Shown here: positions 1,863-30,348 of the stretch, piece after piece | Numbering within the stretch: the stretch's first letter is position 1 | Layout: every line of letters starts with the position of its first letter | Assembly: GCF_014217685.1 (NCBI RefSeq) | Contig: NZ_CP043654.1 | Location: 1 to 64,000 of the forward strand | DNA length: 64,000 bases | DNA from: Glaciihabitans sp. INWT7 | GTDB lineage: Bacteria; Actinomycetota; Actinomycetes; Actinomycetales; Microbacteriaceae | Direction: 5' to 3' | Translations under genes and position numbers: made by a program | The notes under the pieces: model-generated | What the model was told of the DNA's origin: nothing | Databases searched by the model: none | Seen by the model: the letters and a program-made list of their open reading frames with translations, nothing else

Positions 1863-1882
1863 CCGCGCATGGCTTTCCTATG
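1863..1882 (+). promoter_or_regulatory. Start-linked motif CCGCGCATG-N8-ATG, helicase gene
   Basis: CCGCGCATG at 1863-1871 is followed by 8 nt and then the ATG at 1880. This is one of thirteen such motifs at gene starts in 1-30.4 kb. It fixes the helicase start at 1880 rather than at the upstream in-frame ATG at 1784. The spacing fits a leaderless promoter, with CATGGC acting as the -10-like element. Confidence 0.75.
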
Positions 1883-4546
1883 AGCCTCACCGCACCGTCC
1901 TCCGTCCAGACCACACCAGCGAACCTGCTCGAGCTGGTCACGCTCGACGTGGATGTCGCGGCACCAAAATACGTCCTCCGTGACTACCAGCAGAAAGCGC
2001 TGGCACGGACGCTGGAGGCTCTTGCGACAGACTCCCTGGCTACCGTCCTCTCCGCCTGCGGAACGGGCAAGACCGTCACGATGCTCGCCCTGCATGAGGC
2101 GACGAACTCCACCCTCACTGGTTTCTTCTGCCCGAACCTGTCGCTGCTGCAGCAGACCGTTGCCAGCTGGCGTGCGCTCGGCCGCAAGTTCGTCGCACTG
2201 ATCGTCTGCTCGGACCCGAGCGTCGGTAAAGCCTCCGTGGACGACATCTCCGAAGACGAGCTCCGCGCTTCCCTCCCGGACATTGAAGTCACTCAGGATC
2301 CAGCCCGAGTCGCCGAGTTCATCACCTTCGCCGAGAGCGGCTTCACCGACATGCCGCACATCGTCTTCGGCACCTACCAGTCGTCGCACAAGATCGCCAC
2401 CGCACAAGAGTCCACGAAGGGCACCTTCGACCTGATCATCGCCGACGAAGCTCATTACCTCGGAACCCGCGACCGAAAAGCGTCCGCTGCAGAGAACAAA
2501 AACGGTGAAGCCGTCCGGAACCCGAAGATGATCCGCTCCGACCGTCGCGTGTTCACCACCGCCACCCAGAGGACCGTCTCGTCGAAGAACGGGCAGGACA
2601 CCGAGTCGCACGCGTCGATGGACAACCCGGCCCTGTTCGGCACGGTTGCGTTCGAGCTGTCGCTTCGGGATGCCATAAACCTTCCCCGGCAGGCAAACGG
2701 GATGCCGGTCCTCACTGAGTACGAAATCCTCATCCTCGCCGTCACCGAGACCGAAATTGAAGAGCTCTACCCAGACCATCAGTTCGCGCTCGACAGCACC
2801 GACGAAGGAGCCCGTCATGCGATGGCGCTGATCGCAGCACGGAAGCTCAACGAGGAGTACGGGGTCACCCGGATGATCTCGTACCACTCCGGCGTGGAGC
2901 GCGCACAGCAGTTCGCCGCCGATTTGCTCGAGAACGGCTTCGATCGCGCGCGATCGATCACCGCGGACGTGCCGATGGACGAACGCCGGGAGATCCTCCG
3001 CCAGCTCGAGGACGGCTGCGTGGTCACGAACGTGAACTGCCTCACCGAAGGCATCGACGTGCCGGCTCTCGAAGCGGTCCTCCTTGTTGACCCCCGCACC
3101 AGCGAGATCGACATCGTCCAGATCATCGGCCGGGCGATCCGCCCGTTCCGCTTCCCTGACGGACGGATGAAGGAGAAGGGCTACGTTGTCATGCCGGTCC
3201 TCGCCGGCCCGGACGGTCAGCCGAAAGAAGGCGCGTTCGAGAACGTGTTCAACGTGCTCCGGAAGATGGCTGCGAACGATGAACGGCTCGCCCAGGAGAT
3301 CATCGACGCGGGGATCCGCGCGAAAACCGGGGAAGGCGACGAGCCGGAAGAGCGGATCGTGAAAGTTGACCTCGGCGGCCTCGCCGGGGAGTTCCATGGG
3401 CTGGCGCTGGCGGCCCTAACCAAGGGGCTCAGCCTGCAGGTGTTCGAGGCGGTGACCGATTCGTGGGCACTGTTCCTGGTCGACTTGAAGATCTGGGGGG
3501 ATGCACATCCGGGGGAGAGGCCGACTGCGCATTCAGCCGATCTGTTGGAGAAGCGGCTCGGAAAGAGGCTGATCAAACTACGAATCGACAACAAGAAAGG
3601 GCTGCTCCCGGCGCGCACTAAAGCTGAACTGACAGCGGCAATGTCGGTCTGGGATGTGGTGATCGACGCCACCGAAGAGAGTCTGGTTCGCTTCATCTCC
3701 TGGTGCACCGCCAACCCCGGTCACAAACCGCGATCTACGGCTGTCGAACCGGAAGAAAAATTCGCCTACAAGTGGCTGAAAACCCGACGCAGCATCAACA
3801 AGGGGACGATCAACGGCACGAAACTCACTTCAAACCAGCTCGCCCGCCTCAACACCGCATTCCCCGACTGGCATCTTGTCGTTGACGCCACCGAAGAGGG
3901 TCTGGTTCGCTTCATCTCCTGGTGCACCGCCAACCCCGGTCACAAACCGCGATCTACGGCTGTCGAACCGGAAGAAAAATTCGCCTACAAGTGGCTGAAA
4001 ACCCGACGCAGCATCAACAAGGGGACGATCAACGGCACGAAACTCACTTCAAACCAGCTCGCCCGCCTCAACACCGCATTCCCCGACTGGCATCTTGTCG
4101 TTGACGCCACCGAAGAGGGTCTGGTTCGCGTCATCGCCTGGTGCACCGCCAACCCCGGTCACAAACCGCGATCTACGGCTGTCGAACCGGAAGAAAAATT
4201 CGCCTACAAGTGGCTGAAAACCCGACGCAGCATCAACAAGGGGACGATCAACGGCACGAAACTCACTTCAAACCAGCTCGCCCGCCTCAACACCGCATTC
4301 CCCGACTGGCATCTTGTCGTTGACGCCACCGAAGAGGGTCTGGTTCGCTTCATCTCCTGGTGCACCGCCAACCCCGGTCACAAACCGCGATCTACGGCTG
4401 TCGAACCGGAAGAAAAATTCGCCTACAAGTGGCTGAAAACCCGACGCAGCATCAACAAGGGGACGATCAACGGCACGAAACTCACTTCAAACCAGCTCGC
4501 CCGCCTCAACACCGCTGTCCCTGGCTGGCGGCACACCTCCCGCTAA
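1880..4546 (+). CDS. DEAD/DEAH-box helicase with four near-identical C-terminal repeats
   Basis: This is an 888-residue superfamily 2 helicase. Walker A is SACGTGKT (58-65), the Walker B/DEAH box is IADEAH (187-192), and motif VI is QIIGRAIR (414-421). ATP-driven translocation or unwinding of nucleic acid is expected. The N-terminus begins directly with the Q-motif-like segment YVLRDYQQKAL, so there is no nuclease domain, unlike the second helicase at 9283. The C-terminus (about 596-888) consists of four 73-residue repeats of a W...R...KLT...LARLN..FP.W type that resemble helicase-associated domains. The repeats are nearly identical at DNA level. The start was chosen from the motif at 1863. 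The gene converges on the replication gene (4554-6494). Confidence 0.85.
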   Translation: MSLTAPSSVQTTPANLLELVTLDVDVAAPKYVLRDYQQKALARTLEALATDSLATVLSACGTGKTVTMLALHEATNSTLTGFFCPNLSLLQQTVASWRALGRKFVALIVCSDPSVGKASVDDISEDELRASLPDIEVTQDPARVAEFITFAESGFTDMPHIVFGTYQSSHKIATAQESTKGTFDLIIADEAHYLGTRDRKASAAENKNGEAVRNPKMIRSDRRVFTTATQRTVSSKNGQDTESHASMDNPALFGTVAFELSLRDAINLPRQANGMPVLTEYEILILAVTETEIEELYPDHQFALDSTDEGARHAMALIAARKLNEEYGVTRMISYHSGVERAQQFAADLLENGFDRARSITADVPMDERREILRQLEDGCVVTNVNCLTEGIDVPALEAVLLVDPRTSEIDIVQIIGRAIRPFRFPDGRMKEKGYVVMPVLAGPDGQPKEGAFENVFNVLRKMAANDERLAQEIIDAGIRAKTGEGDEPEERIVKVDLGGLAGEFHGLALAALTKGLSLQVFEAVTDSWALFLVDLKIWGDAHPGERPTAHSADLLEKRLGKRLIKLRIDNKKGLLPARTKAELTAAMSVWDVVIDATEESLVRFISWCTANPGHKPRSTAVEPEEKFAYKWLKTRRSINKGTINGTKLTSNQLARLNTAFPDWHLVVDATEEGLVRFISWCTANPGHKPRSTAVEPEEKFAYKWLKTRRSINKGTINGTKLTSNQLARLNTAFPDWHLVVDATEEGLVRVIAWCTANPGHKPRSTAVEPEEKFAYKWLKTRRSINKGTINGTKLTSNQLARLNTAFPDWHLVVDATEEGLVRFISWCTANPGHKPRSTAVEPEEKFAYKWLKTRRSINKGTINGTKLTSNQLARLNTAVPGWRHTSR
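3665..4540 (+). repeat. Four tandem 219-bp in-frame repeats
   Basis: Units begin at about 3665, 3884, 4103 and 4322, a period of 219 bp (73 codons). The copies are almost identical: the first differs near its left edge, the third reads VIAW where the others read FISW, and the last diverges in its final 20 bp. Silent positions are identical too, so the duplication is recent or is kept uniform by gene conversion. Confidence 0.95.
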
Positions 4547-4553
4547 ATCACCC

Positions 4554-6944: not shown

Positions 6945-6962
6945 GGGACGATCTTGGCGCGG

Positions 6963-7322: not shown

Positions 7323-7661
7323 CTACACCGCGGCGTCCGCGTCCTTCGCTGCCAGCTTCGCCAGCCGCTTCATCAGCGGGGTGGCGCGGAGAACCGCCAG
7401 CGGGTCGGTTCCGGTCAGCTCATCCAGAACCTCCCGGATCAGCCCGGCCAGCACACCGGCGTCGTCGGGCGTGTTCGCACGGTCCTGCATCGCGGTGAGC
7501 TCGTCGATCGCGGCAATGTGGCGGGCGGTCGCTTCACGTTCCAGCATTCGGACGATGTTCGCGCGGTGGGCAGCGGTGAGGTCTTTGACTCGCAGGACCG
7601 TGCCGTTCTGCTGGGTCCAGGTCTTCCGGTTGTTCAGGTCGTTTTTCGATGCGTTTCTCAT
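7323..7661 (-). CDS. Small hypothetical protein
   Basis: The protein has 112 residues. The N-terminus is polar and basic (RNASKNDLNNRK), and the rest is helical with many Ala, Leu, Arg and Glu (for example TAAHRANIVRMLEREATARHIAAIDEL and VLAGLIREVLDELTG). There is no signal peptide or membrane segment. The start at 7661 is supported by a perfect start-linked motif. The gene is divergent from the DUF262 gene (7781), and each has its own copy of the motif. Function unknown. Confidence 0.65.
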   Translation of the reverse strand: MRNASKNDLNNRKTWTQQNGTVLRVKDLTAAHRANIVRMLEREATARHIAAIDELTAMQDRANTPDDAGVLAGLIREVLDELTGTDPLAVLRATPLMKRLAKLAAKDADAAV

Positions 7662-7678
7662 GGGAAGAACATGCGCGG
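7659..7678 (-). promoter_or_regulatory. Start-linked motif, minus strand
   Basis: Read on the minus strand: CCGCGCATG (7678-7670), then TTCTTCCC, then the ATG at 7661. The 8-nt spacer is identical to that upstream of 24720. Confidence 0.75.
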
Positions 7679-7763: not shown

Positions 7764-7783
7764 TCGCGCATGGTCTTCCCATG
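7764..7783 (+). promoter_or_regulatory. Start-linked motif, DUF262 gene
   Basis: CTCGCGCATG ends at 7772, followed by GTCTTCCC and the ATG at 7781. The T at the second position of the core replaces the usual C of CCGCGCATG. Confidence 0.75.
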
Positions 7784-8380
7784 AACACCTCGCCGATTGA
7801 CGTGACGGACTCCGAACCGAAGCTTCTCGTCCAGCTGAAACTGAGCCACACCACTCGATCCTTCGACCACTTCCTCAGCCGGCGTGAGCGTTTCGAGGTG
7901 AACCCGCCGTATCAGCGGGGGAGCGTCTGGGATGTTTCCCGCCGCCGCGAGCTGATCAAATCGGCGCTGATGGGATTGCCGATCGGCACGATAACCGTCA
8001 ACGACCGTGGTTATCAGAAGAGCGGTGTGGATATCGCTGTCGTCGACGGAAAACAGCGGCTGGAAGCCCTCCAAGCTTTCGCCGACTCCGAATTTGCGAT
8101 CCCCGCAGCTTGGGTTGACCCCAAGGATGTGCTCGAGACGGAGCCGATGGATTACCGTGGCCGGACCGTCCCCGGTGTCCGCTACTCAGGGACCAGTATT
8201 GTCTTTGGCCGGCGGTTCGCTAACATGCCGTTGCAGGTGACAGAAGCCGCGGTCTCCGGCGTCGACGCGGAGGCGGAGATCTTCATGCTGATCAACTTCG
8301 CCGGCGTTGCGCAGACGGACGCCGACCGGGCGAACGCGACCGTGGTGCTCACGAACGGCGCGAGCGACCGCACCGTCTGA
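7781..8380 (+). CDS. DUF262 (ParB/sulfiredoxin-like) domain protein
   Basis: This 199-residue protein has the DUF262 core. NPPYQRGSVW (41-50) is followed by a helix and then VVDGKQRLEA (87-96), whose DGQR-like motif is shared with the ParB/Srx fold and with the GmrS half of type IV restriction enzymes. In those proteins it is linked to nucleotide use and nuclease control. The DUF1524 HNH nuclease that often accompanies DUF262 is absent here and in the neighbouring genes, so this is a stand-alone DUF262 protein. Three small genes and the nuclease-helicase follow on the same strand. A defence role is possible but inferred. Confidence 0.75.
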   Translation: MNTSPIDVTDSEPKLLVQLKLSHTTRSFDHFLSRRERFEVNPPYQRGSVWDVSRRRELIKSALMGLPIGTITVNDRGYQKSGVDIAVVDGKQRLEALQAFADSEFAIPAAWVDPKDVLETEPMDYRGRTVPGVRYSGTSIVFGRRFANMPLQVTEAAVSGVDAEAEIFMLINFAGVAQTDADRANATVVLTNGASDRTV

Positions 8381-8385
8381 CCGTG

Positions 8386-8405
8386 CCGCGCATGGTGTTC
8401 GTATG
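8386..8405 (+). promoter_or_regulatory. Start-linked motif
   Basis: CCGCGCATG at 8386-8394 is followed by GTGTTCGT and the ATG at 8403. It begins 5 bp after the DUF262 stop codon, so this gene has its own start signal despite lying immediately downstream. Confidence 0.75.
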
Positions 8406-8687
8406 ACCACTCAACTTCACCCCAACTCCGCCGCCATCATCCATACCCGGCCTCGCGCGATCGACATTGGGTTCCTCGCCGCAGCTGTCATCGTTGTCGT
8501 GCAACTTGTCCTCGTCACACTTCGTCTGACCGGGATTGTCGAATGGGATTGGCGTTTTGTTCTCTTGCCCGTGACCGGTTCGATCATGCTGTGCATGGGC
8601 GTCGCTATCGGGATGCTGGTCGTCGGGCTGACCATTGCGTTCTGGCGTGAGGTCAGAGCGTCTGCCAAGCGGGTGTTCCACCGATGA
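8403..8687 (+). CDS. Small membrane protein, two transmembrane helices
   Basis: The protein has 94 residues. After a polar N-terminus (about 1-20) come two hydrophobic helices (about 22-42 and 53-78) and a short basic tail (REVRASAKRVFHR), predicting a hairpin in the membrane. No family recognised. The start-linked motif fixes the ATG at 8403 instead of the longer in-frame opening. It overlaps the next gene by ATGA, so the two are probably translated together. Confidence 0.65.
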   Translation: MTTQLHPNSAAIIHTRPRAIDIGFLAAAVIVVVQLVLVTLRLTGIVEWDWRFVLLPVTGSIMLCMGVAIGMLVVGLTIAFWREVRASAKRVFHR

Positions 8688-9265: not shown

Positions 9266-9285
9266 CTGCGCATAGAGACATCATG
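9266..9285 (+). promoter_or_regulatory. Variant start-linked motif (TGCGCATA)
   Basis: CTGCGCATA is followed by GAGACATC and the ATG at 9283. Spacing matches the strict copies, but the core differs at two positions (C to T, and the last G to A). Confidence 0.6.
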
Positions 9286-10985
9286 TTCTCCAATGCGAAT
9301 CTCAACTTCCTGCTCGCCGAAGCAGAAGCGGCGCCCACCACAACCGAGCACGGCGCCTGGTTCGAGTACATCTCCGACTATGCGCTAAGAACCAGCCCCG
9401 AGTACGGCGGCCAGATCTCGAAGATCGAACGCTACGAGACGTGGGCTCGGAGGGAGCTGCCGCAGGCCTTACCGTCACAGTGGCGAGACCTAGGCGTCGA
9501 CCGTGTGGTCACCACACACTCGGGGGAGTTCTGGGCCGTGCAGAACAAGGGCTACGCCGCCGAAGCAGAGAGCAGCTACAGCCACTACACGAACTTCATC
9601 GCGCAGGCGCGCAGCATTCCCGGTGTCACCAAGCTTCTGTGGATCACGAGCGGAGCTGGTCTCAATCGGACCGCCACAGACCACAACCGGAGCAGCGGAA
9701 GCCAAGTCGTCGTGCACAACCGTTCCTGGCTCGCCGCCGGAATCAACTACCCCGCCACCATCGCCGAGGTGCGCGCCTACCTGGAGGAAGGCAAGAGCCT
9801 CCCGGCCGACGGCCCCTACCAATTGCGCATTCATCAGGAAGTCGCGGTAGCAAACGTGCTCGCCGGGCTCGATACGAACCCTGCTGTTCAATTCATCTCC
9901 GCCTGCGGAACCGGGAAGACCATCACCGCCCACGCACTGCACGAAGCTCTCGGCTCGAAACTCACCTCGTTCTTCGCGCCGACCCTCGGGCTTCTGCGAC
10001 AGACCATCAGAGCGTGGACGCAGCAGTCCGCCGGTCGGCTAACCGTTATCGCCGTCTGCTCCGACGAGGACATGCTGGCGACGGAAGACCACCTGATCGC
10101 CAACGAACAAGAGTTCGGCCGGCACCTCATCCGCAACCCGGATGAACTCGCGTCCACCATCGCTTCGGCGTTGCAGGAGACGACGACCGATGCGGACGGG
10201 ACCGGCCGACCTGTGCCAGTAGTCGTCTTCTCCACCTACCACAGCTCTGAAATCCTCGTCAACGCTCAGCACCAGTTCGGCGCACCCACGTACGACCTCG
10301 CGGTGGCTGACGAGGCGCACAACCTCGCCGGCTGTGGGTTCCGCGGCGAGCTGGTGAAGTTCAAGGAGGACGGCAAGAAGCGACTCATCGCCACGAAGCG
10401 CGTTTACACAACAGCGACCCCGAAGGTGACCAGTTCGGACATGGCCGCCCGGCACGAGATCGACTCCCTCGACGAGAACTCACCAGTGTTCGGCCCTCAA
10501 GCACATGTGCTCACTTTCGGCGAAGCGATCCAGCTGGCCATCATCTCCCCGTACCGGATGAGCATCATCGTGGTTCCAGACGAGCTGATGGCGGTGATCA
10601 ATCAGAACGTCTCCATCGACGGGATGAGCAGCCAGTATCTGTCCGCCGCGTATGCCATCGATCAGAGCATCAAGCAGGGCCAACGGAAGTTCATTTCCTA
10701 CCATTCGCGTGTGGCTCAGGCGAAGGCATTCGCCAACTTCATGGGTAAGCGGAATCCGCTTGGTGACTCCGGCGTCGAGCAGGTCGGGTACTCCGAGACG
10801 GTGTGGGGGAACCTCTCTGCGTTCAAGCGGGAGTCGGCGATCGCCGCTTTCAAAGCGTCGGACGCTCCCGCGCTTCTGACGAACTCGCGGTGCTTGAATG
10901 AGGGCATCGACATTCCCGAACTGGACACGGTCGTCTTTGCGGACCCAAAAGCGCAGGTCGTAGACATTGTCCAGTCGGCCTCCCG
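9283..10985 (+). pseudogene. 5' part of nuclease-helicase gene, split by IS21-type insertion
   Basis: The first 567 codons encode an N-terminal PD-(D/E)xK-like restriction endonuclease domain (GVDRV with D73, then WAVQNKG with the QxK at 87-89). This is followed by a superfamily 2 helicase core: Walker A SACGTGKT (206-213) and DEAH (about 343-346). The reading frame then runs into the insertion and stops at 11023-11025. Joining 10985 directly to 16589 restores VQSASRVLRLHPDKKFG, the expected motif VI region, and gives an 818-residue protein. The 5' fragment alone lacks motif VI and should be inactive as a helicase. Confidence 0.85.
10980..10985. repeat. Left target-site duplication CTCCCG
   Basis: CTCCCG at 10980-10985 is repeated at 16583-16588, directly outside the two ends of the IS21-family element. 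Six bp lies within the 4-8 bp known for that family. Confidence 0.8.
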
Positions 10986-11124
10986 TGTCTGTGACAGCCT
11001 GAAGTGGCCCCGGGGTGACGGTTAGATCTGGCCCCATTTGGTGACTTGCCGGGGTGGTTGTGACGGTTTGATTTGGCCCCACTTGATCGTGGTCTCGTCT
11101 GAATGATTCGGCGAGGAGGCCAGG

Positions 11125-12103
11125 ATGAGGTCAAGGGTGGATGTGTTCGCAGAGATCCGCAGGGATGCCAGGGTTGCAGGGCTGTCGGTGCGAGAGCTGG
11201 CGCGCCGACATAAGGTCCACCGGCGCACGGTGAGGGCAGCGTTGGAATCGGCCCAACCGCCGGCCCGGAAACCGCAGGTGAGATCCTCACCCCGCCTGGA
11301 GCCGTTCACCTCGGCGATCGATGAGATGCTGACGACGGATCTGGATGCTCCGCGCAAGCAGCTCCATACCGCGACCCGGATCCTGGCCCGCCTCGCGGAT
11401 GAGCACGGTGCGACGGAGTTATCGTATTCGACGGTCAGGGATTATGTGCGGGCGCGGCGGGTGGAGATCGAGATCGCGGCGGGCCGACGCGTGAAAGCGT
11501 TCGTCCCGCAAGGCCACGAGCCGGGAGCGGAAGCGGAGGTCGACTTCGGCGAGGTGTGGGTGATCCTGTCCGGGGTGAAGACGAAGTGTCACCTGTTCGT
11601 CTTCCGCCTCTCCCACTCGGGTAAGGCCATCCACCGTGTCTATTCGACCCAGGGACAGGAAGCGTTCCTGGAGGGCCACATTGACGCGTTCGAGGCGATC
11701 GGTGGGATCCCGACCAGGCATATCCGTTACGACAACCTGACGTCCGCGGTCACGAAGGTGCTCTTCGGTCGCAACCGGGTAGAGAATCCCCGCTGGGTGC
11801 TGTTCCGTTCGCACTACGGGTTCGACTCGTTCTATTGCGAGCCGGGTATCAAGGGAGCGCATGAGAAGGGTGGTGTCGAGGGCGAGGTTGGCAGGTTTCG
11901 CCGCAACCATCTCTCACCGATGCCCGTGGTCGGTTCTCTGGCCGAGTTGAACGACCGCATCCGCGCGTGGGATCACGCTGATGACGTTCGGCGGATCTCG
12001 ACCAGGATCCGCACTGTCGGTGCGGACTTCAGCACCGAGCAACCTCTGCTGGCTCCGTTGCCTGGGGAGCGGTTCGATCCGGGCCTGTCGTTGACACCGC
12101 GGG
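11125..12103 (+). pseudogene. istA: istA 5' part (IS21 transposase), interrupted by IS3
   Basis: It has an N-terminal helix-turn-helix (LSVRELARRHKVHRRTVRAAL) and the first catalytic aspartates of the DDE core (EAEVDFGEVW, IRYDNLTSAV), followed by HEKGGVEGEVG, which carries the glutamate. The frame is broken at LSLTPR by the IS3 insertion. The continuation RVDRSSLITVRMAKYSVPSRLIG is found at 13449 onward. Removing 1,345 bp restores one 564-residue IstA. Confidence 0.85.
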
Positions 12104-12168
12104 GACTTAACCCCGGTTCTTGGACACGCTGATTCCAGCACGATGCTGGGGAAGCGAGAATTCAAGAG

Positions 12169-12498
12169 ATGGCTAGGAAGAGTTACACGGACGAGTTTCG
12201 TCGGCGGGCGGTGGATTTATACGAGTCCACGCCTGGTGCGACGGTGAAGGGCATCGCGGCTGATCTGGGAATTTCCCGTGGTGCGTTGAAGGAATGGGTG
12301 GGCAGGCTCGGCTCCGAAGTAACGGTGCCCGGGACTGCGTTCCTCGGGTCTGCGAGGCGATCCGAGTCGCACGCTGGGAGGGTTGTCCGGTTGGAGGCGG
12401 AGCTGGCTGCGTCTCGCGCTGAGGCCCGCAAGCTCGAAACGGAGCGAGACATTCTCCGTCAGGCGGCGAAGTATTTCGCCGGGGAGACGAACTGGTGA
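12169..12498 (+). CDS. IS3-family transposase OrfA
   Basis: The protein has 109 residues: an N-terminal helix-turn-helix (DEFRRRAVDLYESTPGATVKGIAADLGISRGALKEWV) and a C-terminal leucine-zipper-like helix (LEAELAASRAEARKLETERDILRQAAKYF). This is the DNA-binding subunit of IS3 transposases. It overlaps OrfB by 4 nt (GTGA). In this family a programmed -1 frameshift often fuses the two; no slippery run was identified. Confidence 0.9.
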   Translation: MARKSYTDEFRRRAVDLYESTPGATVKGIAADLGISRGALKEWVGRLGSEVTVPGTAFLGSARRSESHAGRVVRLEAELAASRAEARKLETERDILRQAAKYFAGETNW

Positions 12499-13403
12499 CC
12501 CGCTTCCAGTTCGTCGAGGATCACAAGGGCGCCTATGGCGTGAAGCGGTTGTGTGAGGGTGTCGAGGTGTCTAGGTCATCGTTCTACGCGTGGCTGGTCG
12601 CCGCGCCCGCTCGGGCCGGCAGGGCTGCCGCGGACGCGGCATTAGCCGCAAAGATCCGGCAGGTGCAGGACCCGGTCCAGGGTGGTGATCGCGCTTACGG
12701 TGTCCCCAGAGTCACTGCCGACCTGAACGAGAACGCGGCCGGCGGGCAACGGGTCAACCACAAGCGTGTGGCGCGCGTGATGCGCCAGGAAGGACTGGCG
12801 GGGATTCGGTTGCGCCGCCGGGTGAAGACCACAATCCCGGACCAGTCGGGCAGGAAGTTCCCCGATCTGGTGGGCCGCGACTTCACCGCTGAGAGCCCGA
12901 ACCTCCGCTACGTGGGCGACATCACCTACCTGCCCATCGCTGACGGCACGAACCTCTACCTCGCCACGGTGATCGACCTGTGTTCCAGGAAGCTGCCCGG
13001 CTGGGCGATGGCTGACCATATGCGCACCGAGCTTGTCGAAGACGCGTTGAGGGCCGCCTGGCATCAACGCGGCTCGCTGCGCGGTGCGGTCTTTCACTCG
13101 GATCATGGGTCGGTCTATACCTCGAAGGACTACGCGCGTCTCTGCACGGGCATGGGTGTGACTCAGTCGATGGGCGCGGTTGGCTCCAGTGCGGACAACG
13201 CCCTCGCGGAGTCGTTCAACGCGTCGCTGAAACGCGAGCTCCTCGACGGTGTCCCAACATTTCCCGACCAAGCGACCGCCTACCGGGCCGTGTTCCGCTG
13301 GGCGACCCGCTACAACACCCGTCGCCGGCACTCCGCGATCGGCAACATCAGCCCCGACGCATACGAAACCATCGTGTCCGCTACGCTCACGAAAGCGGCA
13401 TAA
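12495..13403 (+). CDS. IS3-family transposase OrfB (DDE integrase core)
   Basis: This 302-residue protein has an HTH_21-like segment near residues 45-95 and the rve catalytic core: GDITYL (first Asp), HSDHGSVYTS (second Asp) and AESFNASLKREL (Glu), with the C-terminal YNTRRRHSAIG typical of IS3. It begins with a GTG inside the OrfA stop. It appears intact and so may be active. Its presence splits istA. Confidence 0.92.
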   Translation: MTRFQFVEDHKGAYGVKRLCEGVEVSRSSFYAWLVAAPARAGRAAADAALAAKIRQVQDPVQGGDRAYGVPRVTADLNENAAGGQRVNHKRVARVMRQEGLAGIRLRRRVKTTIPDQSGRKFPDLVGRDFTAESPNLRYVGDITYLPIADGTNLYLATVIDLCSRKLPGWAMADHMRTELVEDALRAAWHQRGSLRGAVFHSDHGSVYTSKDYARLCTGMGVTQSMGAVGSSADNALAESFNASLKRELLDGVPTFPDQATAYRAVFRWATRYNTRRRHSAIGNISPDAYETIVSATLTKAA

Positions 13404-13448
13404 ACCGAAACGACACCGTGTCCAAGAACAAGGGCCAAGGCCCGCGGG

Positions 13449-14164
13449 TGGACCGGTCGAGTCTGATCACGGTGCGGATGGCGAAATACTCCGTGCCCTC
13501 CCGCTTGATCGGCCGGCAGGTGCGAGTGTCTTTGCGGGCGTCGGAGCTGGTCGTCTTCGACGCCCGGACGGTCGTGGCACGCCATCCCCGGGTGGTGGCC
13601 CGCGGCGGCGAGTCGGTTGATCTGGACCACTACCTCGATGTGCTGAAACTGAAGCCTGGTGCGCTGCCGGGCTCGACCGCTTTGGCGCACGCACGGGCTA
13701 CGGGCGCGTTCACGGCGGCGCATGAAGCATTCTGGGCTGCCGCGCGCAAAACTGACGGTGATGCCGTCGCCACTCGGGAGCTGATCGATGTCCTGTTGTT
13801 GCACCGCTCCATGGACGCGGCTGATGTTGTTGCTGGTCTGTGGGCCGCGGTCATGGTCGGTGCGGTGACCGCGGATGTCGTCGCGGTCGAAGCCCGCCTG
13901 CACGCATCACAACACCACGAAACACCCGGCACGCCCGCGTCTCGCTGTGATCGGGTGAGGTTCCCCTCCGCCGAGCAGCAGCGAGTCGAGCCGAGGGTGG
14001 TCAGTCTCACCCAACGGCGTCTGGCGGATCCTGCGGCGGTGATCGCGGGTCTGCCGCCTGACCGGCGTCCGATACCTTCGATGGCCGGATATGACGAACT
14101 ACTCCATCTACCCGGCAAGTCATCAACCGAAGAACTACCAGCGAGGGAAGAGACCGGATCATGA
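13449..14164 (+). pseudogene. istA: istA 3' part, separated by IS3 insertion
   Basis: It encodes the C-terminal domain of IstA (VDRSSLITVRMAKYSVPSRLIGRQVRV, then a mostly helical tail). It is read in a different frame from the 5' part because of the 1,345-bp insertion. A GTG at 13418, inside the IS3 end, could start an isolated fragment. The stop overlaps istB by ATGA, the normal IS21 arrangement. Confidence 0.85.
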
Positions 14165-18511: not shown

Positions 18512-18531
18512 CCGCGCATGGCCTTCCCATG
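18512..18531 (+). promoter_or_regulatory. Start-linked motif
   Basis: CCGCGCATG (18512-18520), GCCTTCCC, then the ATG at 18529. Confidence 0.75.
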
Positions 18532-19154: not shown

Positions 19155-19174
19155 CCGCGCATGAACTGTGCATG
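19155..19174 (+). promoter_or_regulatory. Start-linked motif
   Basis: CCGCGCATG (19155-19163), AACTGTGC, then the ATG at 19172. The spacer lacks the usual TTC, but the spacing is unchanged. Confidence 0.7.
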
Positions 19175-19894
19175 GGACACAACACTGAAACCTCGTTCGT
19201 AGCAATCGCTCAGGCGGCAACCCCCGGGCTCGCTATCCGCGAGGCCGTCAACCACTGGAACGACACCGAGCGGAACCGCTACGAAGACGCCCGCGAAGGG
19301 CATAGCGACACGCACCCGCTGATGACGCCGGCCGCGGCGGAGCGTTCAATGAACGAAGAGCCTTTCCGTGTCTACGACGGCAAGTCTGTGGCGATCCCCA
19401 CGTGCGCGGACGCTGACGCGGTCGAGAAGACGACGAAGCACAAGCTGACCGTCTCCGCAGAGGACCTGGTCCAGTTCCGCCGCGGGAACACCTGGGCGCT
19501 CACCGAGCGCCTTCGTAAAGACCTTGGCCACACCGTCATTTCTTTCGGGATCGTCTCCCTTCCGAAGGCGCGGAAAGCTGTCGCGACCGCGACCGAGGGG
19601 AAGGCGACCACGAAGTACATCGTCAGCTTCCCCGGCGGAAAGACCATCGGCACGTATCACGACTCGCAGTCCGAAGCCCGCGCCGCAGCTCTCGCGACAG
19701 TAAACGCGGACCCCACCATCTCCGCTCTCGAGGTCACGGCGCTCATCGTCCGTGACAGCGGCAGCCGCGCGCTGGTGTCCATCACCCGTCCGGAGGCTGA
19801 GACCAACGAGATCACGGTGAACGTGACCACGTCGGAGCCGAAGATCGGGGCGAAGCAGGCCGGGTGGTTGGTCGGGTTCGACTACCACAGCTGA
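19172..19894 (+). CDS. Hypothetical soluble protein
   Basis: The protein has 240 residues, with an Ala-rich N-terminus and a polar body. Segments such as TTKYIVSFPGGKTIGTYHDSQSEARAAALATVNADPTISALEVTALIVRDSG look like an alternating alpha/beta fold that occurs perhaps twice. There is no signal peptide, membrane helix or catalytic motif. It is a single gene between two copies of the start-linked motif. I do not recognise the family. Confidence 0.6.
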   Translation: MGHNTETSFVAIAQAATPGLAIREAVNHWNDTERNRYEDAREGHSDTHPLMTPAAAERSMNEEPFRVYDGKSVAIPTCADADAVEKTTKHKLTVSAEDLVQFRRGNTWALTERLRKDLGHTVISFGIVSLPKARKAVATATEGKATTKYIVSFPGGKTIGTYHDSQSEARAAALATVNADPTISALEVTALIVRDSGSRALVSITRPEAETNEITVNVTTSEPKIGAKQAGWLVGFDYHS

Positions 19895-19906: not shown

Positions 19907-19924
19907 CCGCGCATGTAGCGAGTG
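19907..19924 (+). promoter_or_regulatory. Start-linked motif with shifted start (GTG at N6)
   Basis: CCGCGCATG (19907-19915) is followed by 6 nt and a GTG at 19922. No ATG lies at the usual distance. The next strong start is the lipoprotein ATG at 20002, with its own AGGAGA ribosome-binding site. Confidence 0.65.
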
Positions 19925-21325: not shown

Positions 21326-21345
21326 CCGCGCATGATCTTGGTATG
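21326..21345 (+). promoter_or_regulatory. Start-linked motif
   Basis: CCGCGCATG (21326-21334), ATCTTGGT, then the ATG at 21343. Confidence 0.75.
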
Positions 21346-21645
21346 GAACACCTCAACGAAGTGGGCACCCCTGCGCAGCTGCTGGTCGCGGTTCTCGGAG
21401 ATTACGAGACGGACCGATGCCAAGCCCTGGTCCGCGAGCCCGGTTCTGCCCCGGCCCGCTGCATCCTGAAACGCCACGGCGGGATATTCCAGCACAGCCT
21501 CCAGCCGCTGGACACCGCCAGGACCCGCCGAGCGCGGGATGCCGACGTGTGGGATGCCGCCGCGGACTGCCTCGCCGACGACACTCAGCGATCGGTTCTG
21601 AAAGGACTGAACCCGCACCGGGATGCGGTCGCCACATGCCTGTAG
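21343..21645 (+). CDS. Small hypothetical protein
   Basis: This is a 100-residue soluble protein starting at the motif-defined ATG (MEHLNEVGTPAQLLVAVLGDYETD). It contains two cysteine-bearing segments (DRCQALV, ARCILKRHGG) and a C-terminal helix DVWDAAADCLADDTQ. No known domain. Its stop lies inside the possible start of the following membrane protein. Confidence 0.55.
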   Translation: MEHLNEVGTPAQLLVAVLGDYETDRCQALVREPGSAPARCILKRHGGIFQHSLQPLDTARTRRARDADVWDAAADCLADDTQRSVLKGLNPHRDAVATCL

Positions 21646-22115: not shown

Positions 22116-22703
22116 ATGGGGAAGAAAAGCCGCGCTGCGTCTGCTCGGACTAACGCCGCGAAGATCGCTGAGATTCGGGCGCGATCCCGATGGTTCGGCT
22201 TCACCAGTCTGAAACGGGGAGAAGCAAAGATCGCCTTTGGCGTCGGGCTGTCGTTCATCGTCGTGTCGGTCATCGTCTACGGCCAGCTGGCGATGACCGC
22301 CGTCACCGATCGTCTGCGATATATCCAGCTGTCGTACGAGATGCACACCAGTGCCGATGAGTTCGGCCCTCGCACTTTCTCTGCGGTCGCGGCGTCCTCT
22401 GGGCCCTTCGTGGTGCTGTTCCTCGTAGGGTGCCTTCTTGTTGCCTTGGCGGACATCTCCCGCCGCCGGCCGCGCCCAGTCTCGGTCGGCGCCCTCCTGG
22501 GCGTCTCCGCGGTGTTCCTGTTGGCTTTCCTCGCCGTGTGTCCGTTGCAGTTCGTGACCGGGGTCCTCCCCGGCGACCCGCACTTCGACGGTGTCCGCGT
22601 CACCCTCACCCCGCCGGCGATCGTGTTTGCGCTAGGTGCGCTTGCACCGTTGGGTTACCTGCTCGTCCGGCGGATCCGCTCTGGATCTGTCCCGCGCATG
22701 TAG
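22116..22703 (+). CDS. Membrane protein, about four transmembrane helices
   Basis: This 195-residue protein has a basic N-terminus (MGKKSRAASARTNAAK...) and helices near AFGVGLSFIVVSVIVYGQ, SGPFVVLFLVGCLLVALAD, VGALLGVSAVFLLAFLAV and PPAIVFALGALAPLGYLLV. No transporter signature recognised. The last codons (PRM-stop) lie inside the start-linked motif of the next gene, so motif and coding sequence overlap. Confidence 0.65.
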   Translation: MGKKSRAASARTNAAKIAEIRARSRWFGFTSLKRGEAKIAFGVGLSFIVVSVIVYGQLAMTAVTDRLRYIQLSYEMHTSADEFGPRTFSAVAASSGPFVVLFLVGCLLVALADISRRRPRPVSVGALLGVSAVFLLAFLAVCPLQFVTGVLPGDPHFDGVRVTLTPPAIVFALGALAPLGYLLVRRIRSGSVPRM

Positions 22704-22711
22704 TTCTTATG
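22692..22711 (+). promoter_or_regulatory. Start-linked motif overlapping the upstream gene
   Basis: CCGCGCATG (22692-22700), TAGTTCTT, then the ATG at 22709. The TAG of the spacer is the stop codon of the preceding gene. Confidence 0.75.
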
Positions 22712-22951
22712 AGCGATGGAAGCAAACCTACGATCACCGTCCGGAAGACGACCTTCGTTGTCGCGGTGCTCGCCGTCGCGGCTTTCGCTACGAACCTCGC
22801 CGCGCTTCTGGTTTCCGCTGCGCTTCTTCACACGCCCTTGCTTTCCGCCTCGCTCGTCGTCGACTTCGGCGGGCTGGTGATCGCGGTGATCGTCGCAGTA
22901 ATCACCCGACAGCTTCGCGCCCAGCCGCCGAACGAAGTTGATCAGCCGTGA
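22709..22951 (+). CDS. Small membrane protein
   Basis: The protein has 80 residues with two hydrophobic helices (TTFVVAVLAVAAFATNLAALLVSAALL and ASLVVDFGGLVIAVIVAVI) and a short polar tail ending QPPNEVDQP. The start follows the motif. Function unknown; it resembles in size and shape the membrane proteins at 8403 and 8980. Confidence 0.6.
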   Translation: MSDGSKPTITVRKTTFVVAVLAVAAFATNLAALLVSAALLHTPLLSASLVVDFGGLVIAVIVAVITRQLRAQPPNEVDQP

Positions 22952-24702: not shown

Positions 24703-24722
24703 CCGCGCATGTTCTTCCCATG
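24703..24722 (+). promoter_or_regulatory. Start-linked motif
   Basis: CCGCGCATG (24703-24711), TTCTTCCC, then the ATG at 24720; it begins 5 bp after the hipA stop. Confidence 0.75.
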
Positions 24723-25013
24723 AGCCACGCAGAACTCGACATCGTCAACGAAGACGCAACGATCGCGCACGTCCGTGCATCCATTTTCTGGCAGACCCGG
24801 CCGGATTGTGAGCACGAGATCGCAGCCGACGCTCTGTCCGACCAGCTGAGACTCGAAGTGTCGCAGCTGAGGACGGAGATCATGCGTTTGACCGCGGAAC
24901 TCTCCGCGGCGAAGAGCGGAATGGGGACCCTGTCGGCGGCGAGTCTCTTCCTAGACATGGAACGAGCGAGGCATTTCGCCCGGTCGAGCGGCGCTGTCTC
25001 CGCTGACCGCTGA
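24720..25013 (+). CDS. Small coiled-coil protein
   Basis: This is an acidic 97-residue protein with a central heptad-like helix (DALSDQLRLEVSQLRTEIMRLTAELSAAKSG, about 37-67), probably a coiled coil. The start is set by the start-linked motif. It lies between hipA and a convergent minus-strand gene. Function unknown. Confidence 0.6.
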   Translation: MSHAELDIVNEDATIAHVRASIFWQTRPDCEHEIAADALSDQLRLEVSQLRTEIMRLTAELSAAKSGMGTLSAASLFLDMERARHFARSSGAVSADR

Positions 25014-25049: not shown

Positions 25050-26426
25050 TTACGGCTTCATGTCGTCGTGGGTGACCACCCGGCTGAGCTCAATGGTCCC
25101 GTCGACGAGCTTCCAGTAGTGGAGCCGGCGTGCGGACGACGCCTTCTGTTCGACGTACGCTCGGAAGCAGACCGCGCCATCAGCTCGAACGATTCCGCCG
25201 ACGTCGGCGGCTGCCGTGCCCCGCAGCGGGTGGATCCCTCGGGATTCCCGCGCCAGGTCGCAGAGGACATCCACGACACATTTCATCGCCTTGGTGAACT
25301 GGCCGGGGGACAGCTTCTCGAGGGAGTTGACAAACTCCGTACCGACAGAGAAGTCCGGGAGCGGGGTTGTCGGCTTTTCGTTCGCGGGAACGCGGGCGAC
25401 CCAGGCGAGGTACACCTCATGCTTCACGGCGTCCGCCTCGGTGGGGAAGAGCTCCGGTCGGAAGTCGGATGCGGCCGTCTCGACCTTGCCGTTTTTCTTC
25501 CGCAGAGCGGAGAGCTGCTCGGTGTTGCGGGCACGGATGTCGCTCAGCTGGCGGACCAGTCTCGCGTTCTCGACGATCGCTTCATTCATGCGGTCGGCGC
25601 AGTCGTTGAGAGCTTGCGCTCGTCCTGCGGCGATGGTTGCCTGCAGCGAAGCGTTCGTCGCTTTGAGCGCGGTGATGGTGAGCAGAGCGTCGTTCAGGGC
25701 TCCGGTCTTCCGTCCCGGGCTTGGAGCCTCGGACGGTTCGACAATGGCGATCGGCTGGGTACTCGCGGCGACCGCGGCGATTCCGCTCAGTCGCTGCGGG
25801 GCGGGCTCTGTCCGGGGTACGTCAGAGACGACCGGCTCAGAGCGCAGGATTGCGGGTGTGACTGACTGTGCCGGAGCTGACTCAGCCGCAGCCAGCGGGG
25901 CTGTGACGGGCGCGCTGGCAGCAGCGGCGGAAGCGCGGGCGAGAAGTTCAAGCTGCTCGGCGCTGAACGCTGAGTTCGCTGCTCCGGTCGGCGGTGTTGC
26001 CTGCCCTCTGGGGATGGCAGCGTCGTCGATCAGTTGCTCGGTGGAGGAAGCGCCACCAGCCGCGTCGTATGCGAATCTGAGGGGAGAACGTCGGAGGTCT
26101 TCCTCCCAGGCAGTGCCCGGCTGATAGACCCGTCCTGCGCCGCCGTAGACGTGAGAGCCCTCGACCATGAGGTCGGCGAAGGCGTAAGTGAGCGAGCCCG
26201 TTTTGATCAGGAACACAGTGGCCGTGTTGCCTAACGCTTCCGCGATTCGGTCAGCGTCTATGAGCGGGACGTCTTCCCGGTTCTGGGTGGAAACAGCCAC
26301 GACCGGGGTGGTTCTCGCTGGGGAGCGAAGCAGGGTGACAAGGTCTTCGACCTCGCGGACGGTGGTGATCCGGTGGGCGAGCGCGCTGGGCGTACGGTTC
26401 CGGGTGGGGGTGGCTGTGACGGTCAT
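25050..26426 (-). CDS. Large hypothetical protein with coiled coil
   Basis: This 458-residue protein has an N-terminal alpha/beta domain (about 18-130) with segments such as TTPVVAVSTQNREDVPLIDADRIAEALG and TATVFLIKTGSLTYAFADLM. A long Ala/Pro/Ser-rich linker follows, then a coiled coil (about 265-315, LITALKATNASLQATIAAGRAQALNDCADRMNEAIVENARLVRQL) and a C-terminal folded domain. No family recognised. A GAGG sequence precedes the ATG at 26426. The CCGCGCATG motif lies about 50 nt upstream, here serving a leadered transcript. Confidence 0.6.
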   Translation of the reverse strand: MTVTATPTRNRTPSALAHRITTVREVEDLVTLLRSPARTTPVVAVSTQNREDVPLIDADRIAEALGNTATVFLIKTGSLTYAFADLMVEGSHVYGGAGRVYQPGTAWEEDLRRSPLRFAYDAAGGASSTEQLIDDAAIPRGQATPPTGAANSAFSAEQLELLARASAAAASAPVTAPLAAAESAPAQSVTPAILRSEPVVSDVPRTEPAPQRLSGIAAVAASTQPIAIVEPSEAPSPGRKTGALNDALLTITALKATNASLQATIAAGRAQALNDCADRMNEAIVENARLVRQLSDIRARNTEQLSALRKKNGKVETAASDFRPELFPTEADAVKHEVYLAWVARVPANEKPTTPLPDFSVGTEFVNSLEKLSPGQFTKAMKCVVDVLCDLARESRGIHPLRGTAAADVGGIVRADGAVCFRAYVEQKASSARRLHYWKLVDGTIELSRVVTHDDMKP

Positions 26427-26475: not shown

Positions 26476-26484
26476 CATGCGCGG
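26476..26484 (-). promoter_or_regulatory. CCGCGCATG motif 50 nt upstream of its gene
   Basis: The minus-strand core at 26484-26476 is followed at 8 nt by GCA, not a start codon. The gene starts further down at 26426 with its own GAGG site. This copy argues that the motif is a promoter rather than a translation signal. Confidence 0.65.
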
Positions 26485-26492
26485 CAGCCTGG

Positions 26493-27892: not shown

Positions 27893-28093
27893 TCATCTGG
27901 ACCCGACGGCAACTATTACGTCGGACTCGGTTCCAGGCTGACGGGAAGCGGGTGAAGACCGCCGGTGCAGCCGCACATAGCTGACGAAGTCACCCGCGGG
28001 ATACAGCGCCACATCGAGCAGCTTCTGTTCGACGAGTTGACCATCGGCGCGGCTCAAAGGTTCGCCGGAATCGTCAGCGGTCCTGCGGCTCAT
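27893..28093 (-). CDS. Small hypothetical protein
   Basis: This 66-residue protein starts at the ATG at 28093, inside the stop of the upstream gene (ATGA). The sequence MSRRTADDSGEPLSRADGQLVEQKLLDVALYPAGDFVSYVRLHRR has a helix-strand pattern with no known motif. Confidence 0.5.
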   Translation of the reverse strand: MSRRTADDSGEPLSRADGQLVEQKLLDVALYPAGDFVSYVRLHRRSSPASRQPGTESDVIVAVGSR

Positions 28094-28512
28094 CGTGCAA
28101 CCCATCCGGCCAGAGTTCTGGCGCGAAGGTTCTCATAAGAGACTGTCGCGTGCTCGAACAGTCGATCGCTTGCCGCGAACGAACCGGCGACACCGCGTTT
28201 CAGATCGACGAGGAATCTCAACGCCGAGGCTGCCGCACTACTGAGGGCCTGCTGCGCTCCGATCGCCCGCTGTTGCAGGTCCCGCTCGAAGACCGCCTCG
28301 CCCGAGACCGAATCGTCCACCGGTGCGATCATCGCCTCGAAGATCGGAAGGAACTCATCCGCACGCCGAAGGCACTCGTCGACCTGCAGCCGGTGTTCGG
28401 CCGAACCTTCGCTCGCGCAGGTGCGCGCGGCATCCCAGGACAGCTTGGTCTCGGTCTGGTAGAGAGCCTGCGCGATGCGCTGTCTGATGGTCTCGCGGGT
28501 GTGGATGGTCAC
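28090..28512 (-). CDS. Hypothetical helical protein
   Basis: This protein of about 140 residues is mainly helical (ETIRQRIAQALYQTETKLSWDAARTC, RADEFLPIFEAMIAPV, RDLQQRAIGAQQALSSAAASALRFLVDLKRG). The start is uncertain: a GTG at 28512 has an AGGAG 11 nt upstream, and a GTG at 28557 lies only a few nt from the predicted transcript start. It is the first gene of the coupled run 28512-26493 and is preceded by the CCGCGCATG motif. Confidence 0.55.
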   Translation of the reverse strand: MTIHTRETIRQRIAQALYQTETKLSWDAARTCASEGSAEHRLQVDECLRRADEFLPIFEAMIAPVDDSVSGEAVFERDLQQRAIGAQQALSSAAASALRFLVDLKRGVAGSFAASDRLFEHATVSYENLRARTLAGWVAR

Positions 28513-28572
28513 GGTGGGTCGCGCTCCTCGGTCGGATGCTCGCGGTCGCGAGCTCACATGTCACCTATTGCA

Positions 28573-28581
28573 TGCGCGGCA
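28573..28581 (-). promoter_or_regulatory. CCGCGCATG motif without a start codon at N8
   Basis: The minus-strand core lies at 28581-28573. The gene downstream probably starts at 28557 or 28512, so the motif would give a short leader. Confidence 0.6.
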
Positions 28582-29928: not shown

Positions 29929-29956
29929 GCTGGGTTCCGGTCGGGAGTGATGCCGG

Positions 29957-30331
29957 TCACAGCGCTTCGCCGTCCGGGCCGGTGACCGGTCCGAGAGCCG
30001 TTCCGAGCTCATTGAGAATGGTGTCCAGAGAGTCGGGTGCCGGCGCGACGGAGGCGTGGAATTCGTAGAGTTCGCGGATGTTCTGCAGCGCTGCGAGGTG
30101 CTTGGTGTCACGGTCGAGTTCGTGGGTGGCGACGAGAAGCATGATGTAGGCGAGGATGAGTTCGTTCGCGGCTTCGGCGTCCTTGTTGGGGGCGTTCAGG
30201 AGTGGGAGAGTTCCGCTTATCCAGTCTCCGAGTCCTTCGTCGGTCAGTCTGGCGACTCGGATGTCGATCTGCTCCTGGCGGGCGATTGCGGCGCTCAGGA
30301 GCTGCTGGTCTTCCTCTTCGATGGAGTTCAT
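29957..30331 (-). CDS. Hypothetical helical protein
   Basis: This acidic 124-residue protein consists mostly of helices (IEEEDQQLLSAAIARQEQIDIRVARLTDEGLG, AANELILAYIMLLVATHELDRDTKHLAALQNIRELYEF). It is the first gene of the minus-strand run to 28614. Its ATG at 30331 is fixed by a perfect start-linked motif. Function unknown. Confidence 0.6.
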   Translation of the reverse strand: MNSIEEEDQQLLSAAIARQEQIDIRVARLTDEGLGDWISGTLPLLNAPNKDAEAANELILAYIMLLVATHELDRDTKHLAALQNIRELYEFHASVAPAPDSLDTILNELGTALGPVTGPDGEAL

Positions 30332-30348
30332 AGGAAGACCATGCGCGG
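30329..30348 (-). promoter_or_regulatory. Start-linked motif, last copy in the window
   Basis: The minus strand reads CCGCGCATG (30348-30340), GTCTTCCT, ATG (30331). No further gene-start copy was seen between here and 64000. Confidence 0.75.

Follow-up and report, generated by a model that had tools for sequence, protein, structure and literature searches.

Leaderless sigma-A promoters of actinobacteria place the start codon at the transcript start, with a TANNNT box at -12 to -7 and no Shine-Dalgarno sequence. In cluster K mycobacteriophages, start-associated sequences (SAS/ESAS) with the sequence GGGATAGGAGCCC, Shine-Dalgarno-like in our reading, are repeated before the start codons of many genes, about half with extended inverted repeats, and their function is unproven (PMC3203893). 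The Bifidobacterium megaplasmid pMP7017 carries 19 copies of a 34-bp motif that is absent from bifidobacterial chromosomes and overlaps a canonical TATACT -10 box, with ribosome-binding sites downstream; its authors read it as a transcription-factor site (PMC10832533). Leading-region or establishment genes of conjugative plasmids, some linked to anti-defence, show coordinated expression in other transfer systems (PMC11541004, PMC8708921). Here we describe a short signal that sits at one fixed distance before many unrelated genes of a large actinobacterial plasmid, and that looks like a private on-switch of a family of large soil-bacterium plasmids and related elements.

We analyzed the first 64,000 nt (the window) of contig NZ_CP043654.1 (assembly GCF_014217685.1), a 148,839-bp plasmid of Glaciihabitans sp. 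INWT7. A sequence-only reading had noted that CGCGCATG recurs at gene starts between 1.8 and 30.4 kb, in ten cases exactly 8 nt before an ATG, and this observation held, although its plus-strand coordinates were one base low. CGCGCATG occurs 15 times in the window (7.58 expected; at most 14 in any of 100 shuffles). The full pattern CGCGCATG-N8-ATG occurs exactly 10 times, each at the start of an open frame of 80 codons or more. Of the other five copies, three lie 5' of genes at other distances (19908+, 26483-, 28578-) and two (7115-, 30458-) are not at a start. A claimed variant at 9266 is real, and a second, at 6945-6961, is weak (CCGCGCCA). We refer to the signal as class I, CCGCGCAT[A/G]. 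The copies at or near gene starts in the window are as follows.

1864..1882 (+): class I copy, CGCGCATG-N8-ATG; starts helicase gene 1880-4546 (ResIII/Helicase_C)
7659..7677 (-): class I copy; starts gene 7323-7661 (-), unknown protein; divergent partner of 7765
7765..7783 (+): class I copy; starts gene 7781-8380 (GmrSD_N)
8387..8405 (+): class I copy; starts gene 8403-8687 (94-aa protein, no Pfam family over its cut-off; membrane-like by eye)
9268..9285 (+): class I copy in the form found in the relatives, GCGCATAG-N7-ATG; starts gene 9283-11025 (Mrr_cat_2 + helicase)
18513..18531 (+): class I copy; starts gene 18529-19131 (unknown)
19156..19174 (+): class I copy; starts gene 19172-19894 (unknown)
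21327..21345 (+): class I copy; starts gene 21343-21645 (unknown)
22693..22711 (+): class I copy; starts gene 22709-22951 (unknown, 80 aa)
24704..24722 (+): class I copy; starts gene 24720-25013 (unknown)
30329..30347 (-): class I copy; starts gene 29957-30331 (-), unknown
19908..19915 (+): CGCGCATG upstream of a lipoprotein-like gene (called at 19981) without a start at N8; possible promoter with a leader
26476..26483 (-): CGCGCATG 49 nt before gene 25050-26426 (-), whose homologue on plasmid pS16 has CGCATAG-N7-ATG
28571..28578 (-): CGCGCATG 13 nt before a possible GTG start of frame 28090-28557 (-)

The absence of gene-start copies from 30.5 to 64 kb was confirmed (0 of 29 called genes, against 11 of 38 in 1-30.5 kb). 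Outside the window, the plasmid has three more copies at called starts (104584-, 115737-, 122846+), one with ATG and two with GTG. An equal density of the motif across the host chromosome had been named beforehand as grounds for rejection; the 3.48-Mb genome holds 11 exact N8-ATG copies, all on the plasmid and none on the chromosome, and the reversed control holds none. In an unbiased hexamer test of the plasmid, GCGCAT nine bases before a start codon (15 of 106 copies, log10 p -10.0) ranked first together with the overlapping CGCGCA. Over the whole plasmid, 14 of 144 called starts carry the signal; a Shine-Dalgarno sequence precedes 0 of these 14 against 32 of the other 130 (p 0.04), and a pyrimidine lies at -1 in 14 of 14 against 75 of 130. 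The motif fills much of the stretch searched for Shine-Dalgarno sequences, which by itself lowers that count.

We next turned to related plasmids. The same eight plasmids (pACHL01, pS16, pCPAA3 and others), of a large plasmid family with FtsK-like and PD-(D/E)XK genes, head both of two protein searches, and at least 40 of 145 called plasmid genes have a pS16 match at E<=1e-8, in agreement with a shared backbone. These sister plasmids carry CGCATAG-N7-ATG, with 29, 53 and 50 copies in three Curtobacterium plasmids and none in reversed controls, revealing that CATG is one variant of a more general CAT[A/G] block. In the Curtobacterium plasmid pS16, 64 of 173 CGCATAG have ATG at +7 or +8, whereas every other ATG distance from 0 to 19 has 4 or fewer; GTG at +7/+8 (25) is, however, no commoner than GTG at +2 and +5 (25). 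Of 76 annotated genes in 105-145 kb, 24 have GCAT in register, and Shine-Dalgarno sequences precede 3 of 24 against 27 of 52 (p 0.001). The RNA-ligase homologue carries the motif in both plasmids. A -35-like box was seen in three of five sampled elements: CA-N-C in 19 sites of element G263 (a Microbacteriaceae genome with the motif on small contigs) and C-N-G-C in pS16 and pCPAA3. No such box was found in the window plasmid (13 sites), nor a comparable one in plasmid W06 (76 sites) or in G280, a locus reached through the protein described below (12 sites).

These comparisons bear on the possibility that the conserved unit is a leaderless four-codon upstream ORF, in which transcription starts at the ATG inside CGCGCATG, the peptide M-x-[F/L/V]-[P/L/V] is made, and its TGA overlaps the real start (ATGA or GTGA), coupling translation. 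On the plasmid, 10 of 13 N8 copies at called starts do read ATG-3 codons-TGA with such an overlap. Yet any ATG-N8-RTGA gives this frame automatically, the relatives have ATA in place of the first ATG, as does gene 9283 of the window, the copy at 22693 has an early stop, and those at 19156 and 21327 have no such stop. We therefore dropped this reading as very unlikely; the apparent mini-ORF is geometry.

The relatives also carry an overlooked protein that may read the signal. A divergent sigma-70-like 'hypothetical protein' is encoded by all eight sister plasmids, where the gene may simply be backbone, and by both genomes found by motif alone. Of 299 Microbacteriaceae genomes, only two (G089 and G263, the latter on small contigs) have more than one copy of the strict form, the others having 0 or 1; both carry the sigma-like gene, which is full length in 7 of 299. 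In G089, the gene lies beside only two of the six copies, the other four being over 550 kb away. In the reverse direction, among loci reached through the protein alone, G280 has CGCATA at the same distance (9 of 25), Pseudactinotalea has GCACAT-N9 (6 of 14, two of the six in one palindrome), and Actinomyces vulturis has CGACCATA-N8, drifted forms in register; in Pseudactinotalea, one copy precedes the sigma-like gene itself. On the other hand, 6 of 15 sequence sets holding the gene do not give the motif as top hexamer (G089b, G309, G240, G212, A. terrae, ISL-65), and two are mixed (W01, G233).

Sigma70_r2 was detected in 6 of 9 members of the protein family at E<=1 (best 2.2e-4), with 16.3 bits against a cut-off of 24 for one member, and 16 of 17 NCBIfam families matched at E<=0.1 are sigma factors (best 6.2e-5), all below cut-off for one member. 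All family matches but one are below curated cut-offs; the copy on plasmid W01 reaches the Pfam cut-off with its neighbours in the frame (24.1 bits). A predicted structure was poor (pLDDT 65): at least 27 of the 51 Foldseek matches are sigma factors or chains of bacterial RNA-polymerase complexes, but none of the 51 is significant (best E 0.38, a designed protein). A second model, of the Pseudactinotalea protein, was also poor (mean pLDDT 60.5). No sigma-like homologue was found in the window's own genome by profile searches of all plasmid frames of 40 aa or more, hhalign against 989 plasmid frames of 80 aa or more, or whole-genome profile searches.

We also asked whether these proteins and motifs occur in phages. 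The Pseudactinotalea sigma-like protein has no match in 50,697 phage records, and searches of viral contigs gave no relative for two profiles. The strict class I pattern matched 110 viral stretches. None of 80 of these holds a sigma-like frame, and four of the 80 lie on one contig, IMGVR_UViG_2867207765_000001, which also holds tagged frames (see below) and looks like a fragment of this plasmid family.

Taken together, the data suggest that the block is most likely the upstream -10 part of an element-specific promoter class, a reading to which we assign a probability of roughly 0.68. In this view, RNA polymerase carrying a dedicated, divergent sigma-70-type factor would be directed to CCGCGCATAG, open the DNA and start at the purine of the ATG or GTG 9-10 nt downstream of CAT, such that the mRNAs would be leaderless with the start codon as their 5' end. 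Our analysis establishes the fixed spacing, the restriction to the plasmid and related elements, the shortage of Shine-Dalgarno sequences, the pyrimidine at -1 and purine at +1, the -35-like box in some relatives, and the co-occurrence with a sigma-like gene in relatives. We infer, from sequence alone, that the block is a promoter, that transcripts begin at the start codon, and that the sigma-like protein binds core RNA polymerase, directs initiation and is the candidate and probable reader in those elements; no reader was found for the window's own plasmid, where CATA has become CATG. The interpretation in the sequence-only reading was thus partly supported: a promoter class specific to this element with leaderless starts is well supported and extends to a family of plasmids and other elements, whereas its suggestion of a dedicated sigma factor or activator is supported for relatives but not for the window's own genome. 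It could not see the wider CAT[A/G] block or the second promoter class described below.

Two other readings of the promoters seem unlikely. The first is that they are read by a known-type sigma factor, either a FliA/WhiG-like sigma encoded on some of the plasmids or one of the host's chromosomal sigma factors. Proteins that look FliA/WhiG-like by eye lie on plasmids W01, W06, W07 and W08, the window's host has 16 Sigma70_r2 hits, all on its chromosome, and the FliA -10 (GCCGATAA) has A and T in the same register. However, there was no FliA-like hit on W03 or on the window plasmid (a search that left out W02, W04 and W05), sites in W08 are spread over the whole plasmid at 7-28 per 50 kb, and the strict form is rare among the 299 relatives, as noted above. 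The flagellar stretch of pS16 does not add to this case: it has no sites under a tighter definition but 7 of 155 under a looser one. The second reading is an operator for a plasmid repressor or activator laid over ordinary sigma-A promoters, as proposed for pMP7017. Against this, there is no TANNNT -10 at the expected place and there are few Shine-Dalgarno sequences, and the block itself sits in -10 register, with a separate -35-like box in some relatives.

In Curtobacterium, a second class, CCGCACAY, precedes genes for proteins that share an N-terminal tag (about ...R..G.P.GG.FA...H.E..V.L). The split is not clean everywhere. In the Arthrobacter-group stretches, CGCACAC-type starts precede both tagged and untagged proteins, and of nine tagged C2 proteins four do not show a CGCACAC start. 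The tag profile built from Curtobacterium scores the window plasmid's tagged proteins only weakly (best 11.4 bits), and those were recognized by eye. The sigma-like protein is itself tagged in 15 of 20 members, and on the sister plasmids its gene has a class II-type start. A speculative and rather unlikely possibility is that these elements use a two-class promoter code tied to protein destination, with class I driving untagged genes and class II tagged ones. If the tag is an export signal, the element would ship its own sigma factor and helper proteins along with its DNA and switch on class I genes at once in the recipient, a plasmid counterpart of phages that inject their RNA polymerase.

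A private, leaderless promoter class with a candidate dedicated, so far unannotated sigma factor would show how large actinobacterial plasmids, mostly of hypothetical genes, run their own expression programme inside different hosts. It would help to place start codons and regulons for many unannotated genes, give a set of promoters whose sequence has drifted between elements (CATA, CACAT, CCATA, CATG) together with candidate readers to compare, and allow a direct test of whether promoter class marks protein destination. The results of literature searches, restricted to open-access papers, covering only part of the matches and leaving aside the contents of two papers that name pACHL01, show no paper on this motif, these plasmids' promoters or this protein.

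We return to the systems described at the outset. The leading-region genes share the coordinated expression of plasmid genes, although no role in transfer is shown here. With the sister plasmids, the window's plasmid shares backbone genes but not, as far as we could find, the sigma-like gene. The resemblance to cluster K start-associated sequences, drawn in the sequence-only reading, holds only in concept: both are repeated directly before the start codons of many unrelated genes, but the consensus here is CCGCGCAT[A/G] and not GGGATAGGAGCCC. Like the pMP7017 motif, the signal has many dispersed copies on a large actinobacterial plasmid, whereas the pMP7017 motif overlaps a canonical -10 box with ribosome-binding sites downstream. 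As in leaderless sigma-A promoters, the start codon lies at the presumed transcript start and a Shine-Dalgarno sequence is usually lacking. What differs is that positions -12 to -7 read CATGNN or CATAGN in place of TANNNT, that the class is private to a group of mobile elements, and that its -35-like box differs between G263 and the Curtobacterium plasmids.

The 64-kb window makes up bases 1–64,000 of contig C2 (148,839 bp), one of the two contigs of a 3.48-Mb genome. We found CGCGCATG 15 times in the window (7.58 expected) and CGCGCATG-N8-ATG 10 times, each at the start of an open frame. Genome-wide, the exact N8-ATG form occurs 11 times, all on C2, with none in the reversed control. A narrower form, CGCGCATG-N3-TTC-N2-ATGA, was found in three of 398 Microbacteriaceae genomes, with eight copies in this genome and one in each of two others. 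A simple gene caller gave 145 genes on C2. Of the 144 with enough upstream sequence, 14 have GCGCAT ending nine bases before the start: 11 of 38 in 1–30.5 kb, 0 of 29 in 30.5–64 kb, and three of 77 beyond. Twelve of the 14 match CCGCGCAT fully and two with one change. The start-linked repeat described in the sequence-only reading is therefore real. Three further features of the window were noted:
10985–14991, IS21-type transposase genes with an IS3-type element at about 12101–13448 between them, by similarity
16638–18471, two frames with helicase-associated (HA) domains, five copies in the second, directly upstream of a motif gene; an HA protein is also annotated on plasmid pS16 (see below)
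38000–64000, a motif-free stretch of what look like sugar or ring metabolism, transporter and regulator genes, probably inserted and resembling a catabolic cargo island (judged by eye from protein starts)

We next asked what the motif-bearing genes encode. Pfam finds helicases, GmrSD_N and mostly nothing. Outside the window, the motif starts genes for a HAD domain of RNA-repair type, an RNA ligase and a PD-(D/E)XK nuclease. No Pfam family other than helicase domains recurs among them, so gene duplication does not explain the repeat.

Searches with the FtsK-like and PD-(D/E)XK proteins of C2 led to eight large plasmids (denoted W01–W08) of Arthrobacter, Pseudarthrobacter, Paenarthrobacter and Curtobacterium. 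In the five Arthrobacter-group plasmids the nuclease gene starts with CGCATA-N8-ATG, the same distance but with ATA in place of ATG. Upstream of the PD-(D/E)XK gene at two loci (L037 and L038), CGCATAG-N7-GTG opens a 15-codon frame whose TGA overlaps the start of the gene, a possible leaderless leader peptide with coupled translation (read by eye). Counts of CGCATAG-N7-ATG in W01–W08 were 4, 4, 2, 2, 2, 29, 53 and 50, with 0 in every reversed control. In W08 (pS16), 64 of 173 CGCATAG have ATG at +7 or +8, and every other ATG distance from 0 to 19 has four or fewer. GTG is less telling, with 25 at +7/+8 but also 25 at +2 and +5, inside the spacer. The block is therefore CCGCGCAT[A/G], of which the CATG of the window is one variant; gene 9283 of the window has the CATAG form. 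Of the seven class I genes of C2 (those started by this block) with a pS16 match, three keep class I there, against two of 32 others (p 0.03), although two of the three match the same pS16 gene. One of the two others is gene 25050–26426, which has CGCGCATG 49 nt upstream in C2.

Several lines of evidence suggest a promoter with leaderless starts. In the 105–145 kb region of pS16, 24 of 76 annotated genes have GCAT in register (77 features were listed and one cut gene was dropped; two of the 24 read GCATGA and GCATCT and may be chance). Shine-Dalgarno-like sequence precedes three of these 24 genes against 27 of the other 52 (p 0.001), and a pyrimidine occupies -1 in 23 of 24 against 33 of 52. 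For C2 the corresponding figures are 0 of 14 against 32 of 130 (p 0.04), and 14 of 14 against 75 of 130. The motif itself fills much of the -20 to -4 stretch searched, so part of the Shine-Dalgarno deficit is built in. Aligned on the block, 19 sites of element G263 show CA-N-C 16–19 bases upstream of GCATA, and 155 sites of W08 and 111 of W07 show C-N-G-C 17–20 bases upstream, whereas W06 (76 sites) and G280 (12 sites) show no comparable box; these site lists are loose and include chance matches. A constant box at this position fits a -35 element and is not expected of a translation signal. C2 itself shows no such box in 13 sites, which counts against this reading or reflects the small number of sites.

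We were also able to identify a candidate reader. A Pfam scan of five of the plasmids gave several sigma factors. The Curtobacterium plasmids pS16 and pCPAA3 have a FliA-like sigma factor beside a FlgK-like gene (both by eye), so flagellar genes may be plasmid-borne. In plasmid pACHL01, around 377.5–380.2 kb, one open frame of about 1,000 aa joins a helicase-like part, a sigma-70 part and an HA-like segment, with a CGCATAG-N7-ATG just beyond it at 380242. One weak hit of the Pfam scan belongs to a family annotated "hypothetical protein" where annotation exists, found in each of the eight plasmids and in no other of 72,556 records at E 0.01 (21 places in all, the extra ones left out of account). 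Since the eight share a backbone, this alone is weak evidence.

A stronger test does not rest on the backbone. Of 299 Microbacteriaceae genomes, 17 hold the strict form, and only G089 (six copies) and G263 (five copies) hold more than one. Both carry this protein, as found by tblastn from the plasmid sequences. In G263 the gene lies on contig C20 with three of the copies; in G089 it lies about 1 kb from a divergent pair of copies, while the other four are over 550 kb away. The full-length form (E below 1e-30) is in seven of 299 genomes, although G089 and G263 were by then in the profile and their own E-values are inflated. If independent, two of two would have a chance near 5 in 10,000. The reverse test was mixed. 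Of 15 sets that hold the gene or come from a plasmid that does, an unbiased hexamer scan put the motif or an in-register form first in seven: W08, W07, W06, G263, G280 (CGCATA, nine of 25), Pseudactinotalea (GCACAT, six of 14, two of them in one palindrome) and Actinomyces vulturis (CGACCATA). W01 and G233 were mixed, and G089b, G309, G240, G212, A. terrae and ISL-65 did not show it first. The Nocardioides locus, outside that scan, holds one CGCATA, not at a start.

Evidence that this protein is a sigma factor is weak. Sigma70_r2 matches six of nine members (best 2.2e-4), 16 of 17 NCBIfam families matched are sigma factors (best 6.2e-5), and the six best PDB profile hits are sigma factors at E 0.07–0.33; where a cut-off was shown, all but one hit fall below it. 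The AlphaFold model is poor (pLDDT 65.4), and none of its 51 fold matches is significant, though 27 of the 50 shown are sigma factors or chains of bacterial RNA-polymerase complexes. We therefore refer to the protein as sigma-like rather than as a sigma factor.

On the other hand, repeated searches of the window's own genome found no recognisable copy of the sigma-like protein. Its chromosome has 16 Sigma70_r2 hits. The putative C2 promoters also differ, with G at -9, T at -5 in 11 of 13 and T at -4 in 12 of 13. Either a diverged or different factor reads them, or the class has been taken over by a host factor. Taken together, the data point to a real, element-specific class of leaderless promoters, most likely sigma-driven, with promoter activity, transcription from the start codon and the role of the sigma-like protein all inferred from sequence; the reader is a good candidate in the relatives, and none was recognised for the window. 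The sequence-only interpretation, an element-specific leaderless promoter class that may have a dedicated sigma factor or activator, is thus partly supported. We assign the explanation as a whole, an element-specific leaderless promoter class read by a dedicated sigma-70-type factor, a probability of about 0.68, held down by the GTG counts, the W06 sites and the distant G089 copies.

Finally, we observed a second class of starts. In C2, CGCA[CT]A[CT] occurs 44 times, eight with a start 3–13 bases on. The five at 9–10 bases (93610, 106668, 108413, 116730 and 118999, all on the minus strand) encode proteins with a common N-terminal motif, judged by eye (the first is the least alike), whereas the three at 11–12 do not. 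In W08 the start is at +7 or +9 in 57 of 228 copies. Nine C2 proteins outside the window (92540, 93086, 105535, 106114, 107412, 111166, 115918, 117561 and 118640, all on the minus strand) share, by eye, an N-terminal motif (about HPR..GKF.DK.QS.PE..L), and the sister plasmids have a cognate tag linked to this second class. A tag profile trained on 19 class II proteins of the related plasmids W06/W07 finds, at 5 bits, 21 of 25 CCGCACAY genes of W08, 0 of 84 class I genes and 64 of 1,726 other open frames (p 8e-19 between classes; at 3 bits class I has three of 84). W06–W08 are related, so this is not a fully independent test, and in Arthrobacter-group plasmids the split is blurred. A contig listed as viral, IMGVR_UViG_2867207765_000001, carries both putative promoter classes and tagged frames and is probably a plasmid fragment.

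The sigma-like protein itself scores 9 bits or more for the tag in 15 of 20 members, although W06 and W07 may also have been in the training set. Its gene starts after CGCACAC in W01–W06 and after CGCATAC in W07/W08. That the sigma-like protein is injected into the recipient is an unlikely hypothesis only. Of ten tagged proteins scanned (nine from pS16 and one from C2, one of them cut), three matched a telling family: HA, GmrSD_N and, just below cut-off, the N-terminal domain of ArdC. ArdC of plasmid R388 is reported to be needed in the recipient cell.
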